This document shows positions 7,838-24,449 of a stretch of DNA of 64,000 bases, piece after piece. The DNA comes from Larkinella soli (GTDB taxonomy: Bacteria > Bacteroidota > Bacteroidia > Cytophagales > Spirosomataceae). Made by a program: the position numbers and the translations under genes. The stretch spans positions 310,001 to 374,000 of the forward strand of contig NZ_QTJY01000001.1 in NCBI RefSeq assembly GCF_003703975.1, given 5' to 3'. Below the pieces are notes generated by a model, which searched no databases, was not told where the DNA came from, and saw only the letters and a program-made list of their open reading frames with translations. Each line of letters begins with the position of its first letter. Position 1 is the stretch's first letter.

Positions 7838-9610
7838 ATGCCATTTTCGACAAATCCCCGTAGCTATTTCATACTTGCCGGAATTATTCTTCTCGCCTTT
7901 TTCCTCCGGGTGTACCGGTCCGGAACCTATTCTATTTTCTTCGACGAAAAATCGACCCTGCTCATCAGCCAGGGGGTGGTGCTGGAGGGAGCCAACCAGC
8001 ACGACGTTTTCGATAAAAAGGACAGTCCTTATTTTACGCCGAAAGAATTCTGGAAGCAAAAGACGTTCGCCGATTTTATCGAAGCCAACATCCGGGGCGA
8101 TATCGGCAACAGCCCGGCTTATTACGGCGTCCTCTGGCTCTGGATGGAGGTGTTCGGCCGGAGCGATTTTTCAATGCGGTTCCTTTCGGTCCTGTTCAGT
8201 ACCCTGACGATCCCGCTGCTTTTCTTCTTCGTCCGCCGGCATTTCCGGTCCGATGGCCTCGCCCTGATCAGTGCCCTGATCGCCACGATCGAACCGTTCT
8301 TCATCGCCTATAGTCATCAGGCCCGGAATTATTCGATGACCTTTTTCCTGACGCTGCTGACGACGCACCTCTTCCTGATCATTCTGGAAAAGGAGAATGA
8401 CCGCAAACCGGCGACCGGCCTCTATGTAGCCTACGCTCTTCTGGTAGCCACGTCCGTGTTGTCCCATTACCTGACGGTGACGGTTTTTCTGGGTCATGCG
8501 CTCTATGCCGTACTTTTTCTCCGAAAGCCGCAGGTCTGGGTCCGGCTCGGCCTTGCGGCCATCGCCGGTCTGGCGGTCGTCTCCACCTGGTTCATTTTCG
8601 GGGCCGGCAAATACACCTTCAGTACCTTGAACTATCAGGCCAATTTTTACCGGAAGTTTGCGGAGACCAATCCATACAACAACCCCTTCGGCATCATCCT
8701 TCCGGCCACGGTGCCGAATGTGTTCTGGCGGTCGCTGCCGGTTTTCAGTGATCTGATCATCTTTACGAACGGCCTTGCCAACGCACTTTCCGGGTTCAAA
8801 AACGTGCTTCTGGCGCTGCTGCTCGGCATTCTGGCCACCGGGGTGATCCACTTTTACGGAAACCAGCGTCGGCCGCCGGTCTGGGTCAGGCCGGCGGTGG
8901 GGGTAGTGCTGGCGGCCGGGTTGCCGTTTTACACCGTCAGCCCGTGGCAGAACCTCGTCCTGTCCGGTTCCATCCCTCTCTTTTACCTGCTGATCGTCAG
9001 CATCTTTGATCAAAAAACGCTTCGGGAACGTCACCTCGTCGTCTTTCTGATGATTTTGTCGCTGCTGCCGACCTTTTTCCTGATCTTCATGGCCTTCCGT
9101 TCGGGTCATACCTACGGGATCACCCAGCGGTATTCCGGCTTTTCGTTTCCCTACGTGGTCATTCTGCTGGCGATGATGTTCCGCCGGTTGCCGGGGCTGA
9201 AACCCTGGGTCAGCCTGCCGCTGGTGGCCGTATTGGTAATTCAGGGCGTCTTTCTGGTGGGGCTGCTGCAACGGATTTACGGCGATTCGGATCCTAAGTA
9301 CACTTATTTTGCCCAACCCCGCCTTCCGAATCCCTTCTGGGAGTCGGCCCGGAAAATCCGGGAGCAGTATGCCCCGGGCGATACGGTATTGTATCCTTCC
9401 CTGAAACGCCATGAATATACGGAAGTGGACCGTTCGGGCCGGCCGTTTTCAGTCATCGACGCCCAGTTGGTAAACGTATATTTGCCGAAGGATGCGACTT
9501 ATTATCAGCGCATTGACCAAAACGAGCCGGATAAGATTGTTCTGGTGAAAGGCAAGTCCGGCCGGAAAATCACTATCTTTGACTTTGAAGGAATGAAATA
9601 TCGGTATTGA
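7838..9610 (+). CDS. GT39-like membrane glycosyltransferase (GT-C fold)
   Basis: A 590-residue polytopic protein with roughly 11-12 membrane helices. The first loop after helix 1 carries FFDEKST, the acidic motif expected of GT-C enzymes (ArnT/PMT/GT39 type), which move sugars from a polyprenyl-phosphate donor to acceptors on the outer face of the inner membrane. A second loop motif, SHQARNYS, is also typical. The ATG at 7838 is preferred to an upstream TTG at 7817. It is the first gene of the rightward surface-glycan locus and ends 1 bp before the transketolase N-terminal gene. Donor and acceptor are unknown. Confidence 0.8.
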   Translation: MPFSTNPRSYFILAGIILLAFFLRVYRSGTYSIFFDEKSTLLISQGVVLEGANQHDVFDKKDSPYFTPKEFWKQKTFADFIEANIRGDIGNSPAYYGVLWLWMEVFGRSDFSMRFLSVLFSTLTIPLLFFFVRRHFRSDGLALISALIATIEPFFIAYSHQARNYSMTFFLTLLTTHLFLIILEKENDRKPATGLYVAYALLVATSVLSHYLTVTVFLGHALYAVLFLRKPQVWVRLGLAAIAGLAVVSTWFIFGAGKYTFSTLNYQANFYRKFAETNPYNNPFGIILPATVPNVFWRSLPVFSDLIIFTNGLANALSGFKNVLLALLLGILATGVIHFYGNQRRPPVWVRPAVGVVLAAGLPFYTVSPWQNLVLSGSIPLFYLLIVSIFDQKTLRERHLVVFLMILSLLPTFFLIFMAFRSGHTYGITQRYSGFSFPYVVILLAMMFRRLPGLKPWVSLPLVAVLVIQGVFLVGLLQRIYGDSDPKYTYFAQPRLPNPFWESARKIREQYAPGDTVLYPSLKRHEYTEVDRSGRPFSVIDAQLVNVYLPKDATYYQRIDQNEPDKIVLVKGKSGRKITIFDFEGMKYRY

Positions 9611-9611
9611 A

Positions 9612-10430
9612 ATGATCCTGCCAGCCACATCCATCGACATAAAAACCCTCAGCGGACAACTCCGGCTGAAAGTGCTCGAACTGTATCATATGGCCCACGC
9701 GGGTCACATCGGATGCTCCCTGAGCTGCCTCGATCTGATGATTGCCACCCTGGTGCTTCAGAAGCGGGAGGAAGACACCTTCATTCTTTCCAAAGGCCAC
9801 GCGGCCGCAGCCCTGTACGTCTGCCTGAACCACCTCGGCGAAATCCCGGATGAGCAGCTTCAGACCTTTTATAAAAACGGCACGACCCTTCCGGCCCACC
9901 CGGCTCCCAATAAACACCGGGGGATTCCCTTCGCGACGGGTTCCCTGGGCCACGGCCTGCCCATTGCTTCCGGTATTGCCCACGCCAATAAGCTTCAGGG
10001 GAACGACCAGGTGGTGTACGTCCTGCTTTCCGACGGAGAAACCAACGAAGGGACGACCTGGGAAGCCGCCCACTACGCCCTGCAGAACGGCCTCGACAAC
10101 CTGATCATGATGATCGACCGGAACGGCCTACAGGGTTTCGGGAAAACAAAGGATGTGCTGGGCGATACCGCCGAGCCCGAAAAGTGGCGGGCCATCGGCT
10201 TCGAGGTGGTCGAAACGGACGGACATGATATCGAAAAGCTTCAGTCCATCGTTGAAAGCCTTCAGCGGCAGGCCAATGGCAAGCCCAAAGTAATCATTGC
10301 CCACACCGTGAAAGGAAAAGGCGTTTCCTACATGGAAGACCGGATGGAATGGCACTACCTGCCCATGACCCCGGAACTTTATGAACAGGCCAGAGCCGAG
10401 GTTCAGGAGCGGTACCTGTCCGGCCGGTAG
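9612..10430 (+). CDS. transketolase, N-terminal (thiamine-diphosphate) subunit
   Basis: A 272-residue stand-alone N-terminal half of transketolase. Seen are the substrate loop HAGHIGCSLSCLD, LSKGHAAAALY, GSLGHGLPIASG, and the thiamine-diphosphate/metal motif SDGETNEGTTWEAA ... DRNGLQG (canonical GDG is SDG here). It needs the partner subunit encoded two genes downstream to form an active enzyme that transfers two-carbon ketol units. The gene directly follows the GT39-like gene and lies in a glycan operon, not with other pentose-phosphate genes, so I infer a role in making a special sugar, not in core metabolism. Confidence 0.9.
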   Translation: MILPATSIDIKTLSGQLRLKVLELYHMAHAGHIGCSLSCLDLMIATLVLQKREEDTFILSKGHAAAALYVCLNHLGEIPDEQLQTFYKNGTTLPAHPAPNKHRGIPFATGSLGHGLPIASGIAHANKLQGNDQVVYVLLSDGETNEGTTWEAAHYALQNGLDNLIMMIDRNGLQGFGKTKDVLGDTAEPEKWRAIGFEVVETDGHDIEKLQSIVESLQRQANGKPKVIIAHTVKGKGVSYMEDRMEWHYLPMTPELYEQARAEVQERYLSGR

Positions 10431-10449
10431 AATCTTTTTGAACCCACCA

Positions 10450-12462
10450 ATGTCTGAGCAACTTCTCCCATACCGGGACAAAATTCTTCAACTGAAAGGA
10501 CCCATTTTCGTATTCGGGGCCAGTGGTTTTATCGGGGCCAACCTGGTCGAGCAGCTTCATCAAATCCGCAGGTCGGCCGGCCACAGCGACGTGTTCGCCC
10601 TGACCCATGATGCCACCAGGGCCTGGCGGTTGAAGCTGTTGGACATGCCGGCCGAAAACATCGTCCACTGCGATATTCTTTCCAATAAATCGGTCAGGGA
10701 GATTTTCGACCGCCATAAGCCCCGCACCGTCTTCAACCTGGCGGCCTACGGGGCTTACAGCAAACAGAAGAATGTTAACCTGATATACGAAACCAACGTA
10801 ACCGGAACGGTCAACCTGCTGGAAAACTGCACCCCAGAGACGGTTTATATTCATGCCGGAAGCAGTTCGGAATACGGTTTCAACTGTACCGCCCCGAAGG
10901 AAACCGACCGCGTCGAGCCGAATAGCCATTATGCCGTATCGAAAGTTTCGGCGGCCTATATGCTCGAATTTTACGCCCGGGTGCATGGCCTCAACACCCT
11001 GAACCTCCGGCTGTATTCCATCTACGGCGGATGGGAAGAACCAGACCGGCTCATTCCCCGGCTGGTCGAGGAGGCTCGCCGAAATGCCCTGCCCCCGCTG
11101 GTATCCCCGGATATCAGCCGGGATTTCGTCTACATCGACGACTGCGTGGAAGCCTTCGTCCAGGCGGCTCTGAAGGTGAACAGTTCCATCAGCGGCCGGT
11201 CCTACAACATCGCCACGGGTCGGAAAACCACCATGCGCGAGCTGGTCGAAGTGACGCGCCAGACTTTTGGAATTGCCATCGAGCCGGTCTGGGGCAGCAT
11301 GGGCAACCGGCAATGGGACCTGAGCGACTGGTACGGCGACCCGGAAGCCGCCCGTACCGACCTCGGCTGGCAGGCCCGCACCCCGCTGAACGAAGGCCTG
11401 AGGAAAACCGCCGAATGGCAGGCAGGCCACCGGTACGCCGAGCGCATCCTGCCCGCCTTCCAGAACCCGACCCTCAACCCGGTCATCACGGCCATCATCG
11501 CCTGTTATAAGGACGCCCAGGCCATTCCGATCATGTACGAGCGGCTGGTGAAAACCTTCAACGAAATGAAGGTCCGGTATGAGATTATTTTCGTCAACGA
11601 CAACTCGCCCGACAACCAGGAGGAAGTCATCGACGCCATCTGCGCCAAAGATCCGAACGTGATCGGCATCAGTCACTCCCGGAATTTCGGCTCCCAGTCG
11701 GCTTTCCTGAGCGGTATGGAGGTTTCTACCGGCGACGCCGTGGTTTTGATGGACGGCGACCTTCAGGACCCGCCCGAAATCATTCCCAGGTTCTATGAAA
11801 AATGGCAGCAGGGCTTCGACGTGACGTATGGGGTTCGGGTGCAACGCGAAATGCCTGCTCATGTCCACTTCTTTTATCGGACCTTTTACCGGCTTTTTAA
11901 GAAAATGTCGTATATCAACATCCCGGTCGATGCCGGCGACTTTTCGATGATCGACCGGAAGGTGGTGCGGGAACTGGTGTCGCTGCCCGAAACCGAGCAG
12001 TTTCTGCGCGGCCTGCGGGCGTGGGTGGGATTCAAACAAACCGGGGTGGATTATGTCCGGCCCGAGCGAATGTTCGGCGTCTCGACCAACAACTGGACGA
12101 AAAACATCTGGTGGGCCAAAAAAGCCATTTTTTCCTTCAGTTTTGCTCCCCTGGAGATCATGTCTTACGCCGGGTTCCTGCTGACGGGCCTCTCCATTCT
12201 GGGCATTTTCTGGCAGATTCTGGCCAAACTGGTGTTCTTTCCCAACACGCCGGCCGGATTGTCGACCGTGATCGTGCTGGTGATGCTCTTCGGGGGAATC
12301 AACCTGCTGGGCATTTCGTTCCTGGGAGAATACATCAGCAAGATTTTCGAGGAAACCAAAAAACGACCTAAATTCATCCGGACCCGGGTTCGCAGGGGTG
12401 AACAACTGTATAAAACCGCATCGGAAATCAGGGCGCTGGTCGAGGCCCGCAAAGCGAAATAG
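10450..12462 (+). CDS. NAD-dependent sugar epimerase/dehydratase fused to GT2 glycosyltransferase
   Basis: A 670-residue fusion. Residues about 18-335 form an extended short-chain dehydrogenase: FGASGFIG (22-29) binds NAD(P), SSSEYG and YAVSK (Tyr161, Lys165) are catalytic, as in nucleotide-sugar epimerases/dehydratases. From about residue 345 a GT2 domain of DPM1/GtrB type begins (AIIACYKD, VNDNSPDNQ, DGDLQDPPE) and ends with two membrane helices (about 575-655), as in enzymes that load a sugar onto polyprenyl phosphate. The start at 10450 follows the preceding stop; an in-frame ATG at 10381 would overlap the transketolase gene. The fusion implies that the sugar is both remodelled and transferred to lipid carrier by one polypeptide (inference). 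Confidence 0.88.
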   Translation: MSEQLLPYRDKILQLKGPIFVFGASGFIGANLVEQLHQIRRSAGHSDVFALTHDATRAWRLKLLDMPAENIVHCDILSNKSVREIFDRHKPRTVFNLAAYGAYSKQKNVNLIYETNVTGTVNLLENCTPETVYIHAGSSSEYGFNCTAPKETDRVEPNSHYAVSKVSAAYMLEFYARVHGLNTLNLRLYSIYGGWEEPDRLIPRLVEEARRNALPPLVSPDISRDFVYIDDCVEAFVQAALKVNSSISGRSYNIATGRKTTMRELVEVTRQTFGIAIEPVWGSMGNRQWDLSDWYGDPEAARTDLGWQARTPLNEGLRKTAEWQAGHRYAERILPAFQNPTLNPVITAIIACYKDAQAIPIMYERLVKTFNEMKVRYEIIFVNDNSPDNQEEVIDAICAKDPNVIGISHSRNFGSQSAFLSGMEVSTGDAVVLMDGDLQDPPEIIPRFYEKWQQGFDVTYGVRVQREMPAHVHFFYRTFYRLFKKMSYINIPVDAGDFSMIDRKVVRELVSLPETEQFLRGLRAWVGFKQTGVDYVRPERMFGVSTNNWTKNIWWAKKAIFSFSFAPLEIMSYAGFLLTGLSILGIFWQILAKLVFFPNTPAGLSTVIVLVMLFGGINLLGISFLGEYISKIFEETKKRPKFIRTRVRRGEQLYKTASEIRALVEARKAK

Positions 12463-12468
12463 ACGATT

Positions 12469-13380
12469 ATGCGTAAAGAATTTTCAGCGGCCATCGAGCG
12501 CATCGCCACCAGCGACGACCGCATCATCTTCATCACGGGCGACCTGGGTTACAACGCCCTTGAAAATGTGGCCGCAGCCCTCGGCCCCCGCTTCATCAAC
12601 GCCGGGGTAGCCGAACAGAACATGGTCGGGGTGGCCGCCGGGATGGCTTATAAAGGGTACAAGGTGTTCTGCTACAGCATCGCCCCCTTTGCGGTGTACC
12701 GCTGTCTGGAACAGTTTCGCAACGACGTCTGCCTGCATAACCTGCCGGTTTTTCTGGTCGGAAACGGGGGCGGCTACGGGTACGGCATCATGGGTTCGAC
12801 CCACCACGCCATCGAAGACCTTGCCTGCCTGAGCAGCCTGCAGAACGTCAGGACCTGGATACCGGCTTTTGCCGACGAGATCGACCCCATCGTGGACGCC
12901 ATCGTGGCGGAAGGCCGGCCTGCGTACCTGCGGCTCGGCGCCGGTCCGAAAACGCCCGAAGGCACTCAGGACGCCGGTTCCTTCCGGAAGATCGTCAGCA
13001 GCGAGCGGCCGAAAGGCACCGTGGTGGCGCTGGGCCCCGTGGCGGCCAACGTTCTGAAAGCCTTAGGTACCTCCGATGCGCTCGGCAGCCAGTTCGACGT
13101 CTACACGGCGCTGAACCTTCCCCTCGAACTGCCGGCTGAACTGGGGCGGCAATGGGCCGAAACCGGCAATCTGCTGGTCGTGGAGGAACACGTCGGCATC
13201 GGCGGGCTGGCGCAGCAGCTTTCCGTGAAATTGCTGGAGAATGGTCTGGCTTTCAATAAGTTCGTCAGCCTTTCCGCGCAGGGCTATCCCGAGGGCCTGT
13301 ATGGTGACCAGAGTTACCACCAGCGGCAGTCGGGTCTGGATGCCGTTTCCATTCAGGAAAAACTGGAATCCTTTCTATGA
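12469..13380 (+). CDS. transketolase, C-terminal (pyrimidine-binding) subunit
   Basis: A 303-residue stand-alone C-terminal half of transketolase. Signature residues include ITGDLGYNALE, NAGVAEQNMVGVAAG with the catalytic Glu that activates thiamine diphosphate, and the C-terminal regulatory fold (VVEEHVGIGGLA). It pairs with the N-terminal subunit encoded upstream, the epimerase-GT2 fusion gene being inserted between the two. It begins 6 bp after that gene and its stop overlaps the next gene by 4 nt, so tight co-translation is likely. Confidence 0.9.
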   Translation: MRKEFSAAIERIATSDDRIIFITGDLGYNALENVAAALGPRFINAGVAEQNMVGVAAGMAYKGYKVFCYSIAPFAVYRCLEQFRNDVCLHNLPVFLVGNGGGYGYGIMGSTHHAIEDLACLSSLQNVRTWIPAFADEIDPIVDAIVAEGRPAYLRLGAGPKTPEGTQDAGSFRKIVSSERPKGTVVALGPVAANVLKALGTSDALGSQFDVYTALNLPLELPAELGRQWAETGNLLVVEEHVGIGGLAQQLSVKLLENGLAFNKFVSLSAQGYPEGLYGDQSYHQRQSGLDAVSIQEKLESFL

Positions 13381-15080
13381 TCGTCCGGCGGACAGTGAAG
13401 GCATCGGACCCGGTTTCCCCACCCCTCCCGAAAGCCGGGCAGTTCGCCCGGATCGGCGCGGTTCTGCCGGTCCTTCCGGTGCTGGTCTTCGCCTGGGTGT
13501 TCAGCCGGTATGCCATCAATGTCCCCAAATACGACGATCATGCACTGAAATATTTCCTTCTGTATTTCGAGAAGGCCGATTCCCTTCATGATAAACTGTA
13601 CGCCCTGTTCCGGCAGCACAACGAGCACCGGATCGTCTATGACCGGGTGGTCACGCTGCTGGATTACTGGCTGACCGGCCGGCTTGATTTCGTTCATCTG
13701 ATGGTGCTGGGCAACCTGAGCCTGGTAGCCCTGCTGGGGGTCTTCATCCGGGTGCTGAAACGGTCCGCCAGCCCGCTCTGGATGGCCTTACCGGTCTCAT
13801 TGCTTCTGTTCAATCTTTCGCAGTGGGAGAACATGTTCTGGGGAATGGCCGCCCTCCAGAATTTTACGGTCATTGCCCTCGTGATGGCCGTTTTTTACCG
13901 GATCGCCTACCAACGAAAAGCCGACTGGCTGACCCTCGGCCTGGCCGTGGCCGCCACGACCACCTCCGGGAACGGGCTGCTGGTCTGGCCGGTCGGGCTG
14001 GTCCTGGTTTTGCTGAACCGGGATTTTACTGGAACAATCCGCTGGCTGGTTGCGCTGGCCGTGACCATCCGGCTTTATTTCTTCGGGTACGAAAAGCCGC
14101 CCGGCAATCCGGCTGCCAAAGGGACGATCTCCGACCTGCTGCAGGGCTGGCTGCTGTTCAACGGAGCGGCCGGGGAAGCTTTCCCGATCCGGAATTACTT
14201 TCTGGCCTGCCAGGTGGTCGGCCTGCTGGCGGTGGCGGCCTGCCTGTTTATTGGTATCCGGGCGCTCCGGCGCCATTTTGAAGGCCATCGGCTTCCGTCC
14301 AATGACATTTTCTTTCTGGGGGGAGCGGCTTTCATGGTCGGTACGGGCCTGATCGTCGCTTTCAACCGGGTTGGCTTCGGCATGGAGATTCTAATCACAA
14401 GCCGGTACAAAATTTATTCCCTGACGCTGCTTGGGCTGATTTTCTGTTACGCCATCGCCAACAGCCGGCCGTCCCGCAAAGTCCTGACCGCCGGGCTGGC
14501 CGCCGGGTTCAGCTTTCTGCTGGCGCTGTTCTCCTACAGCACCTATCTCGACGAGATCGTGTTTTTACGGAAGTTCATGGCGACGTTTCAGTTCAACTTT
14601 ACGTATACGACGAACCGTCCCGTTCAGACCATTGATCCCGTCACCCGTCGGATGACCCGGCCGGCCCCGGCCTTTTACGATCCCTACGTAAAGGAGCTTT
14701 TCGGGTCGCCGGTCCCGGAAACGACCTTCCCGCTCGACTCGGTTTTCCGGGCCGGGCAGGAGTTTGTCGTCCGGGCGGATTCGTTGCCGGTCCTTGGGTA
14801 CCGGGATGAGGGAGCGTACCTGCTCGCCCGGTCCGACCGCAGACAGTATCTCTTTCCCGGCCGTCAGTATCAGACCGATAGCCGCCGGGCCTGGGTTCGT
14901 CCGGCCCGGAAATTCATCTCCGGTTTTACGGCCAATTTGCCGGAGGTCGATCTGCAACCCGGGTATTATGACCTTTTTGTGGTGACCTACGGACCGCAGG
15001 AACAGATCAGGATGTACCGGACCGGCCGCCGGATCTTCACCCGGGGTGCTTCCCTTCCGCCCCTTGAAAAAAACTGGTGA
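13377..15080 (+). CDS. polytopic GT-C-like membrane protein, paralogue A
   Basis: A 567-residue protein with about 9-10 membrane helices (residues 25-400) followed by a soluble C-terminal beta-rich domain (about 420-567). An acidic pair in the first extracytoplasmic loop (VPKYDDH), then QHNEHRIVYDR, SQWENMFWGMAALQNF and TSGNGLL, recall GT-C glycosyltransferases, but I cannot place it in a named family. It overlaps the transketolase C gene by 4 nt (ATGA). The next gene encodes a clear paralogue with all these motifs in the same order. Probable role: sugar transfer or polymerisation on the periplasmic side (inference). Confidence 0.6.
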   Translation: MIVRRTVKASDPVSPPLPKAGQFARIGAVLPVLPVLVFAWVFSRYAINVPKYDDHALKYFLLYFEKADSLHDKLYALFRQHNEHRIVYDRVVTLLDYWLTGRLDFVHLMVLGNLSLVALLGVFIRVLKRSASPLWMALPVSLLLFNLSQWENMFWGMAALQNFTVIALVMAVFYRIAYQRKADWLTLGLAVAATTTSGNGLLVWPVGLVLVLLNRDFTGTIRWLVALAVTIRLYFFGYEKPPGNPAAKGTISDLLQGWLLFNGAAGEAFPIRNYFLACQVVGLLAVAACLFIGIRALRRHFEGHRLPSNDIFFLGGAAFMVGTGLIVAFNRVGFGMEILITSRYKIYSLTLLGLIFCYAIANSRPSRKVLTAGLAAGFSFLLALFSYSTYLDEIVFLRKFMATFQFNFTYTTNRPVQTIDPVTRRMTRPAPAFYDPYVKELFGSPVPETTFPLDSVFRAGQEFVVRADSLPVLGYRDEGAYLLARSDRRQYLFPGRQYQTDSRRAWVRPARKFISGFTANLPEVDLQPGYYDLFVVTYGPQEQIRMYRTGRRIFTRGASLPPLEKNW

Positions 15081-15311: not shown

Positions 15312-17000
15312 ATGGTGTCAAAGCAGAATCCGCTTCATTTCTTTCCCGTTCTTCTCCCGGTTGGGATCGTTGGTGCCACGGTTCTGAAATTTGCGATTAA
15401 CCTGCCCTACTGGGATGATTTCATGGTTCATTCCCACCTGATTTCCATGAAATCCGAACCGGGTCTGGTCCAAAAGGTGAGCCGGCTGTTCGACCAGCAC
15501 TGGGAACACCGGATTCTCTGGACCCGAATTATTTTTTCCCTTTACTACAAACTGACCGGAGAACTCAACTACATCGGCCTGACGCTCATTGGGTTTTCGG
15601 GCCTGCTTCTCCTGGGTGGGTTGCTTTACCGGGCCTTCCGGAAAACCGGGTTACCGGTTTATTATTTTTTGCCCGTCACCTTCTGGCTGTTTACCCTCCA
15701 GTCCCATGAGAACCTGACCTGGGCGATGGCTTCCATTCAGAACTTTCATGTTCTGGTGTTTATTTTCGGTGCGTACTATCTCCTGGCTCTCAACACCCGA
15801 CCTGCCTTCTTTGGAGCGTTGATTCCGGCGTCTATGGCTTGTTTTACGAGCGGCAACGGCATTCTCTGCTTTGTGGCCGGAGCGATCGTGCTGGTCCTGC
15901 TGGGTCATTATAAACGCAGTATGGTCTGGGCTCTGGCCGGGGTGGTCTGCGCATTTCTCTACTTTTTCGATTACCAGCGGATCAACTTTTTTCCATCGGC
16001 TTTCCGGTACGGCCTTTTCACGTGGGTAAAAGCGTTTTTCGTATTTCCGGGCGGTTTCCTCGATACGTACCCTTACACAAGGCCGGTCGCCATCGGTTAT
16101 AACAGCCCCACCTACCTGACCTTCGCCCTCGGACTGGGTCTATTTGCCTCCCTGCTCATTCTGCTATTTCAGGGCCTGATCAAACCCCGATTTTTCAGCA
16201 GGCGGCTTTCAACCTTCCAACCCACTTTCTGGGACATTTTCTTTGGATGTGGAATTCTCTTCCTTCTGGGTACCGATGCCATGCTGGTGTATGCGCGGGT
16301 AGGTTTCGGCGGGGCGGAATATATGCTTCAGGGCCGGTATAAAGTCTATTCCCCGCTGTTTCTCAGCCTTTGTTACCTGTATTTTCTCTGGCGTAACCGG
16401 GAAGACGTTCGCCTGCCGGCCTACTGGGCCGTGGTCAGCCTGATTACGATTCCGGTCAGTTTATATTCAGATTACCAGTGCCTTGAAAGCCTGGTGAACC
16501 AGCAGCGGAAAGCCATTGCGGGCTACCTGACCTGGCGACTGCAAACCCCTATTCAGAATCAGAAAACGTTTGAATCGGTATTTCCCCGGCCCGACCTTCC
16601 GCTTGAGATTCCGGCATCAGTCCGGGCCGAGGCCGGTACCGTTCCGAAGGCAAAGGTCGATCAGGTCATGGAAGAACCGTTTTATTACCAGCTCTTCCGG
16701 AAAAACTCGGTCAACCCTGACTGGGACCGGCCGGAAGAGGGTTCTTTCATTATCCTGAACGGCCGCGACAGTATCTACGTCTTCCCGGCCCGCCCGCTCC
16801 GGCCCTATTCTCTGCCGGACAGCCTGATGGGACGGGTGAAAAAAAATGGTTATTTTACCGATGCCTTTCAGGCCCAGATACCGAAAGAAAGCCTGAAGCC
16901 CGGCACCTACCGGATCGGGCTGCTGACCAGCCGAAACCGCTCCATTCGGTACAGCATTACGCCGGTCGTTATTCGTTACACCACACCCGTTTTTCAATGA
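15312..17000 (+). CDS. polytopic GT-C-like membrane protein, paralogue B
   Basis: A 562-residue paralogue of the preceding gene. Matching blocks appear in order: LPYWDDF, QHWEHRILWTR, SHENLTWAMASIQNF, TSGNGIL, RVGFGGAEYMLQGRYKVYS, then a soluble C-terminal domain with YVFPARP and a final beta segment (GTYRIGLLTS). About 10 membrane helices are expected. The conserved Asp-Asp and Glu-His-Arg in loops facing the periplasm are candidate catalytic residues. It overlaps the downstream acyltransferase by 4 nt, so the two products are probably made together. Function unknown; a GT-C glycosyltransferase is the leading idea. Confidence 0.6.
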   Translation: MVSKQNPLHFFPVLLPVGIVGATVLKFAINLPYWDDFMVHSHLISMKSEPGLVQKVSRLFDQHWEHRILWTRIIFSLYYKLTGELNYIGLTLIGFSGLLLLGGLLYRAFRKTGLPVYYFLPVTFWLFTLQSHENLTWAMASIQNFHVLVFIFGAYYLLALNTRPAFFGALIPASMACFTSGNGILCFVAGAIVLVLLGHYKRSMVWALAGVVCAFLYFFDYQRINFFPSAFRYGLFTWVKAFFVFPGGFLDTYPYTRPVAIGYNSPTYLTFALGLGLFASLLILLFQGLIKPRFFSRRLSTFQPTFWDIFFGCGILFLLGTDAMLVYARVGFGGAEYMLQGRYKVYSPLFLSLCYLYFLWRNREDVRLPAYWAVVSLITIPVSLYSDYQCLESLVNQQRKAIAGYLTWRLQTPIQNQKTFESVFPRPDLPLEIPASVRAEAGTVPKAKVDQVMEEPFYYQLFRKNSVNPDWDRPEEGSFIILNGRDSIYVFPARPLRPYSLPDSLMGRVKKNGYFTDAFQAQIPKESLKPGTYRIGLLTSRNRSIRYSITPVVIRYTTPVFQ

Positions 17001-18139
17001 TTACCAGCACGGAATCCGTTAAAAAGGAAAAGAACTATCTCATTCAGCTGGATGGCCTCCGGTTTCTGGCGGTGACGCTGGTGATGGTCGACCACTGGCT
17101 GGGCGAGCGCAACGGGCTGCCCCTGGGTTACTTCGGGGTGAACCTGTTCTTTGTCCTGAGCGGTTTTCTGATCACCCGGATTCTCATCACGAGTAAACTG
17201 AACGACGAACGGCAGGGGCGCTCGCACGGCCACTCGCTGCGGCAGTTCTACATCCGGCGCAGCCTTCGAATTTTTCCGGTTTATTACCTGACTATTCTGG
17301 TGTTGGCTCTGATCGGCTTCCCGGCCGTCCGGGAACACCTCGGCTGGCTGCTGACCTACACCCAGAATCTCTGGATCGCCATTCACCAGACCTGGCTCGG
17401 GGCCATCGATCACCTGTGGTCGCTGGCCGTCGAGGAGCAGTACTACATCTTCTTTCCCTTCCTGGTGTTCATGATTCCGACCCGGAATCTGTTCCGGATG
17501 CTGGTCTGGCTGATTTCCGTTTCCATCCTGCTCCGGATGTATCTGTTCATGACCGGCGTTCACTGGACGGTCCAGTTCGTGATGATGCCGACCTGTCTGG
17601 ACGCCTTCGGCATGGGGGGAATCCTGGCTCACCTGCTGGTGTTCCGAAAAGAACAGTTCACCCGCATTGCGAACAGCAACCGGTATCTGCTGATCGGTTT
17701 TCTGCTGTACGCCTTCAACCTGTATATGGCCGTGACCGGGGCGCCGGACCGGAGCTTCTTCACCGATGTTTTCGACCGTTTCGTCACTTCCCTGTTCTGC
17801 TTTTTCATCATCGGCCGGGGGGTGGTCGGGTATGGAGGACTGATGAAACGCGTGCTGGAAAATCCGCTGAGCAACTATCTGGGCCGGATCAGTTACGGAT
17901 TGTACCTTTTCCATAACCTGGTTTTCAACGCCTACCACACGCCGTCCGATTTCATAACGGTCCGGGCGCTGAACCGGTTGATGCGCGAGATGCCGTTTCT
18001 ATCGCATCCGGCCGTGGAACCCGTGGCGATGCTCCTGTTTTTCTACGGTCTGACGGTCCTGCTGGCATCACTCTCCTGGATGGTGATCGAAAACCCCGCC
18101 AACCGGCTGAAAGACCGTTTCGCCTACGACCGTTCGTGA
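16997..18139 (+). CDS. acyltransferase-3 family (OafA-like) membrane protein
   Basis: A 380-residue protein with about 10 membrane helices. The N terminus carries LDGLRFLAVTLVMVDHW, with the Arg and His pair found in acyltransferase-3 enzymes, then FFVLSGFLIT and DHLWSLAVEEQYY, all diagnostic. These enzymes acetylate or otherwise acylate sugars of O-antigens, exopolysaccharides or peptidoglycan using cytoplasmic acyl-CoA. There is no SGNH domain fused. It overlaps the GT-C-like paralogue B by 4 nt and is followed by its own paralogue about 250 bp downstream, suggesting two acylation positions. Confidence 0.92.
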   Translation: MITSTESVKKEKNYLIQLDGLRFLAVTLVMVDHWLGERNGLPLGYFGVNLFFVLSGFLITRILITSKLNDERQGRSHGHSLRQFYIRRSLRIFPVYYLTILVLALIGFPAVREHLGWLLTYTQNLWIAIHQTWLGAIDHLWSLAVEEQYYIFFPFLVFMIPTRNLFRMLVWLISVSILLRMYLFMTGVHWTVQFVMMPTCLDAFGMGGILAHLLVFRKEQFTRIANSNRYLLIGFLLYAFNLYMAVTGAPDRSFFTDVFDRFVTSLFCFFIIGRGVVGYGGLMKRVLENPLSNYLGRISYGLYLFHNLVFNAYHTPSDFITVRALNRLMREMPFLSHPAVEPVAMLLFFYGLTVLLASLSWMVIENPANRLKDRFAYDRS

Positions 18140-18385: not shown

Positions 18386-19573
18386 GTGGAGCAAGTTAAA
18401 GAATTTGAAGTAGTCCCTTCCGAGTTCGTTTCGCATCCTTCGGTACCGGTCAAGGTCCGGAAACCAAAATTATCCCAGGCCATTTCCTATTTGAAGCAAC
18501 TGGACGGTCTCCGTTTCATTGCGGTTGCCATGGTATTGGTCGATCACTGGCTGGGGGAAATGAATCGCCTGCCGCTGGGGGCGCTTGGTGTTACCATCTT
18601 TTTTGTTCTGAGCGGTTTTCTGATCACCCGCATTCTCCTTTCCAGTAAGGATAAACTGGCCGGTGAAACCAATGGGCTGGGCCGGTATCTGAAGACCTTT
18701 TACATTCGCCGGACCCTGCGGATTTTTCCCCTCTACTATTCCTGCCTGCTCATCCTGCTGATTGCCGACGTCCCCCCGGTTCGGGAAACGATCGGCTGGT
18801 TTCTGCTGTATGCCAGCAACCTGTATATCGGGCTGAACGCCCACTGGATGGGTGTAGTCGATCATTTATGGTCGCTGGCCGTCGAGGAGCAGGTATACCT
18901 GTTTTTCCCGTTCCTGCTGTTTTTCGTACCGAAACGGTACGTGCCGCTGACGATGTGGACCATGATCGCGGGCAGCATCGCCTTTCGGTATATTCTTTTT
19001 GTCGGAGGCAGTTCCTGGATCAAATCCTACGTTCTGACCCCTTCCTGTCTGGATTCATTCGGGCTTGGGGCGCTGCTGGCCTACGTCTGGCTGTACCGCC
19101 GGACCTGGGTCAATCTGTTATTCTCCCATTCGGCCGGCGTGGTGGTCAGCCTGCTGGCTTATGTTCTGGTCATCGCGGCTTCCAAAGCATTCGAAAATCC
19201 GCACAATATCCTGACGGAGGTGTGGGAGCGTCTGGCCGGATCGGTACTCGGTTTCTTCCTGATCGGGCGGGCGGCCTACGGTTTCAAAGGATGGATGAAG
19301 GCCCTTCTGGAAAATTCGATCTGCCGGTATCTGGGGCAGATCAGCTACGGAATGTACATTTTTCACAATTTAATCTACAATCCGTACCATACCCCTGCGA
19401 CCCATCCAACACTGCAAATCTGGAATAAAATGGTCGGCATCGCCCCGGTACTCGATGAATTATTCGTATTAAAATTTTTCTATTTTGCTGCCCTGACCAT
19501 CCTGGCGGCATCGATCTCCTGGTTCTGCCTCGAAAAGCCGATTAACTCGATGAAAGAGCGATTTTCGTATTAG
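18386..19573 (+). CDS. acyltransferase-3 family (OafA-like) membrane protein, second copy
   Basis: A 395-residue paralogue of the preceding acyltransferase with an extra charged N-terminal stretch of about 35 residues. It shares LDGLRFIAVAMVLVDHW, FFVLSGFLIT, YIRRTLRIFPLYY, VDHLWSLAVEEQ and SYGMYIFHN, so it belongs to the same O-acyltransferase type with about 10 membrane helices. The start is GTG at 18386; no better ATG precedes the conserved block. Unlike its partner it has its own promoter-like site and a structured leader, so it may be switched separately. Confidence 0.9.
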   Translation: MEQVKEFEVVPSEFVSHPSVPVKVRKPKLSQAISYLKQLDGLRFIAVAMVLVDHWLGEMNRLPLGALGVTIFFVLSGFLITRILLSSKDKLAGETNGLGRYLKTFYIRRTLRIFPLYYSCLLILLIADVPPVRETIGWFLLYASNLYIGLNAHWMGVVDHLWSLAVEEQVYLFFPFLLFFVPKRYVPLTMWTMIAGSIAFRYILFVGGSSWIKSYVLTPSCLDSFGLGALLAYVWLYRRTWVNLLFSHSAGVVVSLLAYVLVIAASKAFENPHNILTEVWERLAGSVLGFFLIGRAAYGFKGWMKALLENSICRYLGQISYGMYIFHNLIYNPYHTPATHPTLQIWNKMVGIAPVLDELFVLKFFYFAALTILAASISWFCLEKPINSMKERFSY

Positions 19574-19748: not shown

Positions 19749-20525
19749 ATGGGTTTACTGCTATCGATTGTCATGCCGGCCTACAATGAGGAAGAGTGTA
19801 TCGACCTGGTTGTGCATAATTGGATTGACCTCCTGAATCGGCAATTTCCTTCCGACAATACCCGTCTGGTCGTGATCAATGACGGTTCCAAAGACCGGAC
19901 CGGGGCCATTCTCGACACGCTGAAACCTAAATATCCGGACAAGCTGGTCGTTGTTCACCAGCCGAACGGCGGGCACGGCAATGCGGTCGTGAACGGGTAT
20001 CGTCATGCCGTCGCCTTAGGGTCGGACTATGTTTTCCAGACCGACAGCGACGATCAGTTCATTACCGACGACTTCTCCAAACTCTGGGAAAAACGGCATC
20101 AATCGCACTTTATCCTGGGATACCGCCAGATCCGGTTCGACGCTCCGGCCCGTCTGGTCATCACCCGGATCCTGCGTTTCAGCCTGTTTTTCATCTACGG
20201 CACCTACATCCGCGACAGTAACATTCCCTTCCGGCTGATCAACGGCCAATACCTGAAAAAACTGCTCGAACAACTGCCCTCCCCCCCGCCTTTCGCGCCG
20301 AATATCTTTCTGGCGGTGATGGCGCGGAAAGCCGGTCAGAAGACGTTCGATATTCCCATCACCCACAAGGAACGCCAGACCGGTACGGTTTCCATCCTGA
20401 AGTGGAAACTGATCAAAGTCTGTATGCAAAGCTTCCGGGAACTGGCGGAATTCCGGATGGAGCTGGGTTCGAAGGTGAAGGCCCTCAAAGCCGTAGACGT
20501 CAAGCAGCCGGTTGCGGCCAAATAA
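19749..20525 (+). CDS. GT2 family glycosyltransferase
   Basis: A 258-residue cytoplasmic glycosyltransferase of the GT-A fold. Motifs: SIVMPAYNEEECI at the start, VINDGSKDRT, GHGNAVVNGYRHA, and TDSDDQ as the metal-binding DxD-type site. One hydrophobic stretch (about 140-155) may touch the membrane, but there is no terminal anchor like that of DPM1-type enzymes with extra helices. It probably adds one sugar, or loads polyprenyl phosphate, in the same surface-glycan pathway as its neighbours. Donor sugar unknown. Confidence 0.85.
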   Translation: MGLLLSIVMPAYNEEECIDLVVHNWIDLLNRQFPSDNTRLVVINDGSKDRTGAILDTLKPKYPDKLVVVHQPNGGHGNAVVNGYRHAVALGSDYVFQTDSDDQFITDDFSKLWEKRHQSHFILGYRQIRFDAPARLVITRILRFSLFFIYGTYIRDSNIPFRLINGQYLKKLLEQLPSPPPFAPNIFLAVMARKAGQKTFDIPITHKERQTGTVSILKWKLIKVCMQSFRELAEFRMELGSKVKALKAVDVKQPVAAK

Positions 20526-20536
20526 ATTTCGGATAG

Positions 20537-20616
20537 GAACACGGATCCGGCGGTTTCAACGGTTCGACACGGTGCTTTTTCCGTGAAAACCCGTTCAAGC
20601 GGTTTGATCCGTGTTC
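20537..20616. repeat. long-range inverted repeat between GT2 and next gene
   Basis: GAACACGGATC (20537-20547) is an exact inverse of GATCCGTGTTC (20606-20616). Inside lies a smaller hairpin, CACGG (20568-20572) with CCGTG (20581-20585) around a T-rich loop. The right arm ends 18 nt before the ATG at 20635. It could be a terminator-like element for GT2 or a folded leader. Confidence 0.45.
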
Positions 20617-20634
20617 TTTATTTATATTACCACC

Positions 20635-23358
20635 ATGACTAAAAAACAGCTCTGGTTTGGTGTCGGTGTTCTGGTCCTGATTCTCGGCGGTTACCTGGCT
20701 TACCGCTGGTGGAAGGCCCCCACCCGCTCCGCCTGGATGCTGATTCCGTCCGACGCCCTGCTGGTCCTCGAAAGCGGTACCCTTCAGGATACGATTCCCC
20801 GGCAGGCCCGGTATTCGGAAATGACTCTCCAGCATACGCCGGTTTTTCAGGAAGCCCTGAAAAGCGTCGAACAGTTCGTCTGGGCTCCGCTCGACACCAC
20901 CGATGCGCTGAAACTCCTGCACGGCAAGGGCGTCTGGTATTCGCTGCATTCAACCTCGAAAGACCGGCTGGGTTTTATCTTTTACATCCCCATCAAGTCC
21001 CTGGAAGACCGCCGTCTGGTCAACCGGATCCGGAATCCCGACGCCGACCGGTTCCGGGTTCTGAGCCATCCTTACGAGGACGAACGCATCCATGAATTGC
21101 TGACGGTCCGCAACGAGTCGCTCGGGTCGTTCATCATTCTGGACGATTATCTCGTCGGCAGCCCCTCCACCATCCTGATCGAGAGCGTGGTCCGGCGCAT
21201 GAAACAGCCGTTCACCGAAACCCCGCTGCAACGCGCCGACATTGCGCTGAACCGCCCGGGAACGATGGCCGGCATGTATGTCCGCAGTTCCGTCCTGTCG
21301 GCCATCCTTTCGCCCAAAGGCCAGAACGTCGATGACCAGACCCGGTATGTGAAAGCGTTTCTTCCGACCGAATTGCTGACGAGGTTCCGGCAGTCGGCCT
21401 CGCGTTCGCACCTCATCGGCCTTTCCACCGACGATATCGGTTCCAAACGGGATCTGGCCAACCTGTTCGACCGGCAGACGCCCCTGCGCATCAGCTGCGG
21501 CCCCCTGATTCCTGAACAGACCGCCACCCTGTTCCACATCAGCCTGAGCGACGGCCCCCGTTTCGGCCGGGCGCTGACCTCCTTCATCAATGCCGAGGAC
21601 GATGCCGATACCCGCGAAGGCCGCCGGAAACTCCGGCCTTTGCTCCAGAATGAAGAGAACGGCTTTTACCGGTACGTCGGTAACGAAATTGCCCTGGTTC
21701 GGCTGGATGCTCCCGGTTCGGACCGCCGGCTGGTGATGATGATCCAGTCGCCCGACCCGGACCGGCTGTTCGACCGTTTCCAGCTGGCGGCTCTTCTGAC
21801 CTCCGGCGTGGAACGGCTGCCCGGTTCCAAACCGTTTCTGAAATACCGCATTTCCGCCGTCAACGCGCCCAACCTCCCGGCCGACCTGTTCGGAGGCCTG
21901 TTCCGGGGATTCGACCAGAGCTGGGTCACTCAGGTCGGGGAGTATCTGGTGATCGGCAATGGCGAGGGTGTTTTACAGGAATTTCTGCAAGCGGTCGAAC
22001 AGCGGACGGTCTGGTCCGAGTCCTTCCGTCATCGGAACCTTCTCAACCAAACCCTTCGGCCGGCCAATTTCACGGCGTACACCCGCTTCAACCGGGCCGG
22101 AGAATCCGTGGCGGCCAACTGGTCGGCGGGATGGCAGCAGTTGCTGAACCACGACGAAACCGCCCTGGACAACGTCGAGGACCTCATCTATCAGAGCAGC
22201 TACGGCCGGGAGCGGATCTACTCCACGCTGATCCTGGGTCGCAGCACCCGCCGGGCCACCGAAGCCGTGCTAAACCGGGTGTTCCTCCAGAAAAAAATTG
22301 CCCTGAATGCCCCTCTACTCGGGCCGCCGATGGCCGTCGGTGATTTCGTCGGAGGGTCGGGGTCGATCTGGACGGTCGACAATGCCCGCCAGTTTGTTCT
22401 GATTACCCCCGAAGGTGAAAAGCACACGTTGGGTACCGTGAACGGCGAAGTGCAGAGCGGCCTGGTTCCGGTCGAGTTTCTGGACAACGGCCGGGTACAA
22501 TATGCCTTTACCACCCCTACCACCCTGTATATTGCCGATCCGGTAAACGGGCTGGCCAGACTGCGGTCCCTCCCGTTGCCGGACGGTATCGACCCGACCT
22601 ATCTGGTGGCCCCCCGTCGGGACGAAAACCGGGCGCTGGTGCTTCTCATGCAGCACCGCGACGGCAGTGTATATGCGTTTGACCGGAAACTGGGGCGATT
22701 TGTCCGTCAGTTTGCCGTCACCCAGGTTGGGGAAGCCGCAGCGCCTTTCCAGTCCATCGTCCGGAACCGTTCGATGACCGTGGTGGGAACCCAGAAAGAA
22801 GGGAAGGTCTATGCCTGGAACGAAAACGGGGGCCGCCTGCCGGGCTTTCCGGTCGATCTGAAAGCGGAGGTGATCGGGCCGGCCTGGCTGGAACCCGGCA
22901 ACCCGGCCGTCCTGACCATAATGACGAAGGAGGGCGAACTGGTCCGAATGGCGGAAGACGGCCAGATTCAGGAACGGACCCAATTATATCGACCCATCCG
23001 GCGCGGGTCCTTCCGATCGCTGCCTGAAGTTAGCCAGAACGGGTTCCTGCTTCTCCGCGTTTCCGACACCGAAGCCGCTTTCCTCGACCGCCAGGGACGC
23101 CAGCTGTTCGAGGTTCGGGGATTACGGGCGGGCCAGACCCTCATCCGGTATCACGTTCTGGGGTCCGGCCTGAATCTGGTCAGCATAAAATCCGGTAACT
23201 TTACAACGCTTTATCGGCTCAACGGAAGACCCGTCGGTGACCGCCCGATTCCAAGCCAGTATCCGGTCGGGTTACAGTATTCTCCCACCCGGAACAAACT
23301 GTTTGTTTACAGTTCGGCCGAAAAAGCCGTTCAGGTCTGGTCCATCAAGGTCCGATAA
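20635..23358 (+). CDS. large membrane-anchored protein, DUF3352-like with C-terminal propeller-like region
   Basis: A 907-residue protein with one N-terminal membrane helix (about residues 6-24, LWFGVGVLVLILGGYLAYRWW) and the rest outside the cytoplasm. Residues about 30-540 resemble DUF3352-type proteins (SDALLVLESG, then weak alternating alpha/beta sequence). From about residue 560 the sequence has repeated beta-strand units (TVDNARQFVLI, SVYAFDRKLGRFV, KVYAWNENGGRLPGFPV) like a PQQ/FG-GAP propeller. The ATG at 20635 is chosen because it directly precedes the Lys-Lys and membrane helix. It sits between a GT2 and an SGNH lipoprotein, which suggests an envelope role; function is unknown. Confidence 0.6.
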   Translation: MTKKQLWFGVGVLVLILGGYLAYRWWKAPTRSAWMLIPSDALLVLESGTLQDTIPRQARYSEMTLQHTPVFQEALKSVEQFVWAPLDTTDALKLLHGKGVWYSLHSTSKDRLGFIFYIPIKSLEDRRLVNRIRNPDADRFRVLSHPYEDERIHELLTVRNESLGSFIILDDYLVGSPSTILIESVVRRMKQPFTETPLQRADIALNRPGTMAGMYVRSSVLSAILSPKGQNVDDQTRYVKAFLPTELLTRFRQSASRSHLIGLSTDDIGSKRDLANLFDRQTPLRISCGPLIPEQTATLFHISLSDGPRFGRALTSFINAEDDADTREGRRKLRPLLQNEENGFYRYVGNEIALVRLDAPGSDRRLVMMIQSPDPDRLFDRFQLAALLTSGVERLPGSKPFLKYRISAVNAPNLPADLFGGLFRGFDQSWVTQVGEYLVIGNGEGVLQEFLQAVEQRTVWSESFRHRNLLNQTLRPANFTAYTRFNRAGESVAANWSAGWQQLLNHDETALDNVEDLIYQSSYGRERIYSTLILGRSTRRATEAVLNRVFLQKKIALNAPLLGPPMAVGDFVGGSGSIWTVDNARQFVLITPEGEKHTLGTVNGEVQSGLVPVEFLDNGRVQYAFTTPTTLYIADPVNGLARLRSLPLPDGIDPTYLVAPRRDENRALVLLMQHRDGSVYAFDRKLGRFVRQFAVTQVGEAAAPFQSIVRNRSMTVVGTQKEGKVYAWNENGGRLPGFPVDLKAEVIGPAWLEPGNPAVLTIMTKEGELVRMAEDGQIQERTQLYRPIRRGSFRSLPEVSQNGFLLLRVSDTEAAFLDRQGRQLFEVRGLRAGQTLIRYHVLGSGLNLVSIKSGNFTTLYRLNGRPVGDRPIPSQYPVGLQYSPTRNKLFVYSSAEKAVQVWSIKVR

Positions 23359-23378: not shown

Positions 23379-24449
23379 ATGCCCATTCGCATCCTGGTTC
23401 GATACGTTGTTTTATTCCTGGCCGGCGTCATTTATATCGGAGGTTGCTCGACGGACGTCATGCAGTCGTTTTACCGGAACAGGCTGATCCCGGATGATTA
23501 CCGGTTCGGTGATCTTTACCGGCTGGCCAATCTGCCGCAGTTCAAAGCCGAGCAGCATCCCTGCCCGCCGGCCTACCCTGCTGACGGTCCCCGACAACCC
23601 ATTCACCTGTATCTGATCGGCGACAGCTTTACCGAACCGCAACGCATCAGCCGGCAGGACTTCCCGGTAGAGTCGCTGCACCGGACCAAATGGGATTTTC
23701 CGCGGTATGCGCAGCTCGATACTTCCAAAACCAATATTCTGATCATTGAAACCGTCGAGCGGCATTTCCGCGATCACTTTGACCGGTACGTAGGAGATCT
23801 GCATATCGTGGAGGATAACAACCGGGTCGAAGTGGCTGCCGAACAGCCGGCGACCTGGAGAAACCGGATGAAGCAACTGGAAGACCAGCTTTCGTCCAAG
23901 GCCGTCGAATCCCGGCTGGAAACCATCCTTTTCTTCTCCGACTGGTCGCTTTGGTTCAAGGAGCTGAAGGCCCGGCTGACGCAGAACTGGTTCGGGCGGG
24001 TGGACCCGAAAACGTCGGTAACGCCCGACGGCCGGCACCTGCTTTATTATCTCGATACGGATACGACCGGAAAGAACTCTTCCTTCAAACCCCTGCCGGA
24101 CACCCTGCTGAACCGCTACGTCGACAGCCTGAACCGGATTGCGGACCGGTATCGGGGCCTGGGTTTCGATCAGGTCTATCTTTCGATCATTCCGAACAAA
24201 ACGAGCATCGTGGCGCCGGATATGGGCCCCCTCCCCTACAATCGCCTGATTGAGCGGATACAGCAGAGCCCCCGGCTGACCGTCCCGACCATCGATATTT
24301 TTTCCGACTACAAAGCCAGCCGGATTCCGCTGTATGAGGTCAGTGACGCCCACTGGAACTGCAACGGCCGGGCCATCTGGATTCGGCGGGTTACCGAAGT
24401 GCTGAACCGGAAAGGCCGGAAAGAAGAAAGGCTTACCACCTCCCGGTGA
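23379..24449 (+). CDS. AlgJ/AlgX-like SGNH lipoprotein
   Basis: A 356-residue lipoprotein (lipobox YIGGC, Cys23). It has the SGNH catalytic pieces seen in AlgJ/AlgX and DltD-like O-acetyltransferases: LIGDSFTEP with Ser83 and, near the C terminus, SDAHWN with Asp323 and His325. Such proteins move acetyl groups onto extracellular polysaccharides, normally with a membrane acyl donor. Here the two acyltransferase-3 proteins upstream could supply acyl groups, although the usual partner AlgI/MBOAT is not in the window. It is the last gene of the glycan locus; its stop codon lies within the terminator hairpin. Confidence 0.72.
   Translation: MPIRILVRYVVLFLAGVIYIGGCSTDVMQSFYRNRLIPDDYRFGDLYRLANLPQFKAEQHPCPPAYPADGPRQPIHLYLIGDSFTEPQRISRQDFPVESLHRTKWDFPRYAQLDTSKTNILIIETVERHFRDHFDRYVGDLHIVEDNNRVEVAAEQPATWRNRMKQLEDQLSSKAVESRLETILFFSDWSLWFKELKARLTQNWFGRVDPKTSVTPDGRHLLYYLDTDTTGKNSSFKPLPDTLLNRYVDSLNRIADRYRGLGFDQVYLSIIPNKTSIVAPDMGPLPYNRLIERIQQSPRLTVPTIDIFSDYKASRIPLYEVSDAHWNCNGRAIWIRRVTEVLNRKGRKEERLTTSR

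Follow-up and report, generated by a model that had tools for sequence, protein, structure and literature searches.

In PMC12247030, YerE-like enzymes, which depend on thiamine diphosphate (ThDP), are described as branching surface sugars; YerE, known in connection with CDP-4-keto-3,6-dideoxyglucose, yersiniose and erwiniose, places a carbon branch on the nucleotide keto-sugar of a surface glycan. According to section 9 of the same source, split transketolases were proposed, but are unproven, for miharamycin and amipurimycin, where hydroxyacetyl would be added to a keto-sugar, and the 13 putative sequences all belong to Streptomycetes (PMC12247030). For paulomycin, PMC4753412 reports that an aldo/keto reductase reduces the C-4 acetyl branch. 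In the present study, 64,000 nucleotides of the Larkinella soli genome (contig NZ_QTJY01000001.1, positions 310,001 to 374,000; hereafter the window) were analysed, in which the two halves of a split transketolase enclose a gene that fuses an extended short-chain dehydrogenase/reductase (SDR) to a GtrB-like family 2 glycosyltransferase (GT2). The probable product of this conserved module is an unusual cell-surface sugar, either branched or extended, and the locus would then be a variant of ThDP-dependent sugar branching.

The locus resembles the YerE system in that a transketolase pair related to that of the window sits behind rfbF, rfbG and rfbH in Methylovirgula. YerE, however, is a decarboxylase-superfamily enzyme that works with pyruvate or another keto acid, whereas the window pair is a split transketolase whose genome revealed no CDP pathway. 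In the family search the window pair matched only transketolase, DXS and E1-type families, and not the decarboxylase-superfamily ThDP fold of YerE-like enzymes. The miharamycin and amipurimycin enzymes, to which the pair is likened by their description, belong to antibiotic pathways, in contrast to the Gram-negative type of the window with its SDR-GtrB fusion and GT-C enzymes. A transketolase in such a Gram-negative glycan locus was not reported in any title or abstract of the open-licence literature searched.

The module lies on the plus strand as three intact open reading frames (ORFs), namely the ThDP-binding transketolase half (TKN, 272 amino acids, positions 9612-10430, PF00456 with E 2.3e-31), the fusion (10450-12462) and the pyrimidine-binding half (TKC, 303 amino acids, 12469-13380, PF02779 with E 4e-26), which carries the motif GGGYGYGIMGSTHH. 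This bears out the preliminary description of the locus, according to which separate transketolase halves flank an epimerase-GT2 fusion. Among solved structures, both halves are closest in sequence to the split transketolase of Carboxydothermus hydrogenoformans (TKN with the N component of 6yak, E 2.2e-53; TKC with the C component of 6yaj, E 2.6e-28), which keeps HAGLTVGEDG where the window has GGGYGYGIMG. PF02780 (Transketolase_C) was not matched in TKC at E 0.001; the phmmer alignment with 6yaj extends to residue 255.

The canonical transketolase of this genome (6.92 Mb) is encoded elsewhere by two adjacent genes (C1:953133-954833, ORFs of 287 and 318 amino acids, GEDG motif), to which the window halves are 41% and, for the C halves, 28% identical. 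A further frame of 650 residues resembles DXS, a name suggested by its motif. Since an ordinary split transketolase exists elsewhere in the genome, the window pair is a dedicated paralogue, distinct from the housekeeping enzyme; the refuting case named in the preliminary description, a genome with no other transketolase, was thus not found. Its suggestion that the split itself hints at special chemistry is weak and was rejected, because the core transketolase of the same genome is also split.

Alignments with 6yaj, human transketolase and the core transketolase of the genome showed that the histidines and the ThDP-binding loop are retained in TKN, and that TKC has kept its catalytic Glu and the T-H-H His. 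The pair keeps SDGETNEG...N (with Ser in place of the usual first Gly), AEQN, KGH, AHPA, WH and THH. In the numbering of yeast transketolase, TKC has residues of the E418 and H481 type, and the ThDP and donor histidines are conserved in TKN. The conserved donor histidines argue for transfer of a hydroxyacetyl rather than an acetyl unit.

The pocket for the sugar phosphate differs. The stretch SHAGLTLGEDGATHQ of the core transketolase corresponds to NGGGYGYGIMGSTHH in the window TKC, which reads GGGYGYGxMG where ordinary transketolases have HxGxxxGEDG, and GGGYGYG[IV]MG occurred in all 79 TKCs found, with Val in one. In yeast numbering this change equals the loss of H469 and D477, which, together with R528, are residues of the sugar-phosphate pocket of canonical transketolases. 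At these three positions the window TKC has Gly, Met and Ala and the core enzyme H, D and R. Gly at H469 combined with Met, Ala or Leu at D477 was present in 10 of the 12 TKCs from glycan loci that were compared. At the position of R528, Runella and Dyadobacter have Val or Ala, and genomes G656, G683 and G537 have Lys or Leu; Methylovirgula and Solidesulfovibrio a have Lys, whereas Arg is kept in Methylobacterium and genome G356. The apparent loss of the phosphate contacts argues against ordinary sugar phosphates as acceptors. The alignment around the S386 equivalent was unsure, and this residue was not used. In a tree of 20 rows the TKCs of the module formed one clade with a support of 100/99. 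When Solidesulfovibrio a, Methylovirgula and G356 are included, the support for separation of this wider group from the rest is only 87/92.

The middle gene contains PF01370 (residues 19-255) and PF00535 (348-509) in a single frame, with the SDR at approximately residues 1-338 and the GT2 half with its C-terminal membrane helices at approximately 339-670. An alternative start at 10381 falls within TKN; the start at 10450 was chosen because the Larkinella orthologues begin at the equivalent position (MSEQ..., MSNQ...). The closest named relatives at the locus are Larkinella species, with 87-89% identity in the fusion. The SDR hallmarks GxxGxxG, Ser and YxxxK are present as GASGFIG, GSSSEYG and YAVSK in the window and in nearly all fusions, and the fold compared to epimerases and dehydratases with Z about 30-32. 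The Thr-Asp-Glu (TDE) triad is a mark of nucleotide-sugar 4,6-dehydratases. All 85 fusions read HAG[ST]SSEYG, with SSS at the position of this triad. Of the epimerase/dehydratase named in the preliminary description, the extended SDR with epimerase/reductase motifs therefore stands, and a 4,6-dehydratase is unlikely. The substrate of the SDR could not be read from structure, as epimerases, dehydratases and reductases stand intermingled in the Foldseek and VIA rows, their Z nearly tied, and the model of the fusion reached a mean predicted local distance difference test (pLDDT) score of only 68.5, with a poor GT2 half.

When the GT2 half was searched as a query of 333 residues, its residues 9-307 matched the solved GtrB sll0501 (5ekp) with E 5.6e-61, in agreement with the DPM1/GtrB-like transferase named in the preliminary description. 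The alignments with sll0501 and ArnC span residues 9 to roughly 310 of this query; unlike GtrB and ArnC, the GT2 half is fused to an SDR. On either side of the module lie genes of putative GT-C enzymes, which draw sugars from polyprenyl carriers. Just 5' of TKN, a GT-C glycosyltransferase of the PMT_2 type is encoded on the plus strand (7841-9610, alternative TTG start 7817, PF13231 with E 3.3e-14), and this gene is kept in 63 of the 66 full-length related loci. The 567-amino-acid membrane protein encoded downstream of TKC (13377-15080, plus strand) matched no Pfam or NCBIfam family; its AlphaFold model (mean pLDDT 86.8) is predicted to have the GT-C transferase fold. Rows 1-21 of the structural comparison were GT-C enzymes or assemblies containing one (Z 16.2-9.9, next rows 7.3 and lower), a middling range that helical models can reach by arrangement alone. 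ALG3, ArnT, OST, AftA/B and related GT-C enzymes gave the best alignments; Foldseek alone returned no E below 0.001. A second member of this membrane family (562 amino acids, 15312-17000, plus strand), likewise with no Pfam match, cross-matches the place of the 567-residue protein in related loci at 25-30%. Both may possibly represent an undescribed GT-C family. Because the GT2 half is of the polyprenyl-phosphate transferase type and a neighbour has a predicted GT-C fold, loading of a polyprenyl carrier, as put forward in the preliminary description, is well grounded.

To assess conservation, the window genes were compared by tblastn with 80 related loci, and 85 loci (these 80 on genome contigs plus L096 and L129-L132) were compared by ORF matching. 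The order TKN-fusion-TKC was found in 73 of the 85 and is thus no product of chance. Four showed TKN-TKC-fusion, and eight were partial, with TKN-fusion (3), fusion-TKC (2) or the fusion only (3); several of these eight end at contig borders. In genome G545 the contig ends beside the fusion. TKN and TKC were each present in 65 of the 66 full-length genome-contig loci. The exception is L095 (metagenome-assembled genome Bacteroidetes RIFCSPLOWO2_12_FULL_37_12, 8001-9986), with a 62% identical fusion followed by a methyltransferase (45% identical to that of G683).

Adjacent halves were found in G656, G683 and G537 and on plasmid pMaq22A_1p of Methylobacterium aquaticum, with TKC 43-44% and fusion 47% identical. 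G656 and G683, nearly identical to each other, come from another family of the same taxonomic order; G537 belongs to the family of the window, with a TKC only 47-49% identical that groups with those of G656 and G683 in the tree. Two S-adenosylmethionine (SAM) methyltransferases follow downstream in all three genomes (Pfam was run on those of G683). TKN-TKC-fusion is probably the older order, with the fusion later placed between the halves in most of the family of the window.

With regard to distribution, TKC was detected at E 1e-45 in 3 of 395 genomes of the phylum and at E 1e-60 in 80 of 150 genomes of the family, and the fusion at E 1e-130 in 20 of 241 genomes of the order, 17 of them family members. 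Both searches included 29 genomes of the family, of which 17 had fusion and TKC and 12 had neither (Fisher 1.9e-8, kinship ignored). For six of these 12, zero TKC matches were shown; for the other six (G431, G432, G446, G447, G448, G470) the absence follows from their being drawn in the TKC search and not among its 80 positives. Transketolase and fusion occur as neighbours in two phyla and in two gene orders, which supports the earlier suggestion that they belong together. There is good support for a dedicated transketolase that occurs jointly with an SDR-GtrB fusion serving a polyprenyl-linked sugar. Weak matches were also present in 18 records of a phage collection, and the locus of a record titled Flavobacterium sp. 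SUN052 (L035) is 80% identical with Spirosoma-type order, so this name may be wrong.

Gene structure, paralogy, joint occurrence, active-site changes and predicted folds were seen directly; from these we infer donor, acceptor, order of steps, product and destination as follows. TKN and TKC would form a two-subunit ThDP enzyme that transfers a hydroxyacetyl (glycolaldehyde) C2 unit to a sugar. The likeliest acceptor would be a nucleotide-activated keto-sugar, which would yield a nucleotide sugar with a carbon branch or an extended chain. The SDR half would reduce, or epimerise, this product, and the fused GtrB-like half would transfer the modified sugar to polyprenyl phosphate. After flipping, the adjacent GT-C enzymes would attach it to a surface glycan or protein, which the two acyltransferases encoded further downstream may O-acylate. 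That the transketolase branches a nucleotide keto-sugar with a C2 unit and that SDR, GT2 and GT-C then finish the product is the best overall explanation, to which somewhat better than an even chance is given. A rather doubtful, more specific version is redox-neutral: the SDR with bound NAD would oxidise C4 of a common nucleotide sugar, the transketolase would add hydroxyacetyl, the NADH of the SDR would reduce the side-chain ketone and the GT2 half would load a C8-type branched sugar on polyprenyl phosphate. This would account for the fact that no dehydratase or second reductase is seen beside the module.

The gene neighbourhoods of related enzymes give hints to this chemistry. In Methylovirgula the order is rfbF-rfbG-SDR-rfbH-TKN-TKC, with GT2 and GtrA genes on the opposite strand; its TKC is 46% identical over the first two thirds, and the SDR of this locus is 28% identical to the window SDR domain, above the rfbB (25%) and rfbG (24%) products. 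Of 12 plasmid loci examined in which unfused homologues of SDR and GT2 lie near each other, seven carry rfbF, rfbG and a DegT-type gene immediately upstream, so that genes for CDP-4-keto-sugar synthesis followed by an SDR-GtrB pair are a recurrent arrangement. In five of these seven a large SAM methyltransferase lies in between, and from its size and place one might guess that it adds carbon to the sugar. In Azospirillum, TKN and TKC are followed by an epimerase and an aldo/keto reductase; the reductase is counted in favour of branching of a nucleotide keto-sugar because of the ketoreduction of the paulomycin branch reported in PMC4753412. Genome G356 has a related transketolase pair with a DegT gene and glycosyltransferases and no fusion in the stretch examined.

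Several observations weigh against this explanation. The Azospirillum TKC has Gly at H469 and keeps D477, and that of Solidesulfovibrio b keeps both residues. H469 or D477 is also altered in split transketolases of other contexts, some apparently catabolic, and the pocket change alone is therefore no proof of a nucleotide-sugar acceptor. Methylovirgula and G356 are placed in the transketolase tree with only moderate support, and the program warned of long branches and uneven composition. The Azospirillum epimerase showed no recognisable kinship to the window SDR in the comparison, and five of the 12 plasmid loci (L158, L160, L161, L166, L167) lack the rfbF-rfbG-DegT set. In the Larkinella soli genome no CDP-glucose 4,6-dehydratase scored over the family cut-off, no close RfbH was found (best match 36% over part), and neither rfbF nor rfbG occurred in the stretch examined of any of 79 related loci. 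The analogy to CDP-sugars is therefore not directly transferable, and the keto-sugar would have to be made by the SDR or supplied from elsewhere. A CDP-dideoxyhexose as acceptor in Larkinella soli is not supported. For dTDP-glucose dehydratase, the best match reached 310.8 bits (cut-off 365.1) at the very start of a contig. Finally, no transketolase was found within the 18 kb examined of L095, and the fusion may thus function without one.

Alternatively, the product of the transketolase might be a free sugar phosphate of an unusual kind, such as a higher ketose; enzymes elsewhere would activate it, and SDR and GT2 would act only on the activated end product. The typical transketolase histidines kept in TKN are in line with this, and so is the only ribulose-phosphate 3-epimerase gene (rpe) of the genome (3514-4200, same strand), which lies upstream of the module, as in 49 of the 66 full-length loci, and could supply xylulose 5-phosphate. 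As a single copy, however, it is a housekeeping gene, and alpha-amylase and OmpA-like genes intervene. Moreover, the TKCs of the module have lost the phosphate-contact residue H469 and, in all compared except that of Methylobacterium, also R528, and no kinase or nucleotidyltransferase was seen by eye beside the module in outgroup loci, where no family search was made. This route is considered unlikely.

A similarly low probability is assigned to the assumption that the fusion is an ordinary epimerase and polyprenyl-phosphate hexose synthase, of which PgfE/PgfS is an example, and that the transketolase decorates the same glycan separately. The GT2 half scores best with the PgfS model (235 bits, below the cut-off of 500), the closest solved match of the SDR is UDP-glucose 4-epimerase, so that the SDR could be a plain UDP-sugar 4-epimerase, contrary to the favoured pathway, and L095 has the fusion without a transketolase in the stretch examined. 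However, transketolase and fusion adjoin in two gene orders and two phyla, and each family genome surveyed has either both or neither. That the pair is a spare housekeeping transketolase lying by chance in a glycan locus, as its transketolase domains and ThDP residues would allow, is highly improbable in view of the canonical split enzyme elsewhere in the genome, the low identity of the C halves and the motif replaced in every TKC found.

If a nucleotide keto-sugar is indeed branched by this module, transketolase-type enzymes build carbon-branched sugars of surface glycans across a large part of one bacterial family, and the same reaction type is, in section 9 of PMC12247030, proposed but unproven for two antibiotics. 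Acceptance of a ketone by a transketolase is directly testable here, because about 80 homologues, small membrane-free subunits and a canonical paralogue as control exist.

The genes of the module lie very close to each other and to their neighbours: the GT-C gene ends at 9610, two positions before the start of TKN, and the stop of TKC overlaps the start at 13377. This spacing suggests that module and neighbouring genes are transcribed together. The promoter scan gave 7 matches (8.1 in shuffles), which is shuffle level; terminator-like matches numbered 38 (23.5 in shuffles), yet were scattered inside genes and not used.

Further downstream, also on the plus strand, follow two Acyltransferase-3 family membrane proteins (16997-18139, PF01757 with E 9e-27; 18386-19573, PF01757 with E 1.1e-26) and a GT2 glycosyltransferase of 258 amino acids (19749-20525, PF00535 with E 1.2e-20), the latter kept in 65 of the 66 full-length loci. 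In some relatives other genes have been inserted between fusion and TKC (L022:10294-10704; L049:10072-10365; L038:9961-11718; L091:7257-8721). Judged by eye, the inserts include small toxin-antitoxin-like genes, for which no search was made, and, in Runella, an extra copy of a GT-C-like membrane protein; two methyltransferases occur in Emticicia.

A transketolase of Klebsiella aerogenes adjoins a pentose kinase; it may be an apulose-phosphate transketolase, which would be a precedent for a ketone acceptor, but a literature search on apulose was empty. On a plasmid of Rhizobium beringeri (L099:9100-10924), a split transketolase pair lies beside genes for an acyltransferase, an AMP-binding protein, an acyl-CoA reductase and a GMC oxidoreductase and is perhaps another biosynthetic use of such enzymes. 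In the window, the GT2 gene is followed by two genes for proteins of 915 (20611-23358) and 356 amino acids (23379-24449) with no Pfam match, the former of which is present in 64 of the 80 related loci.

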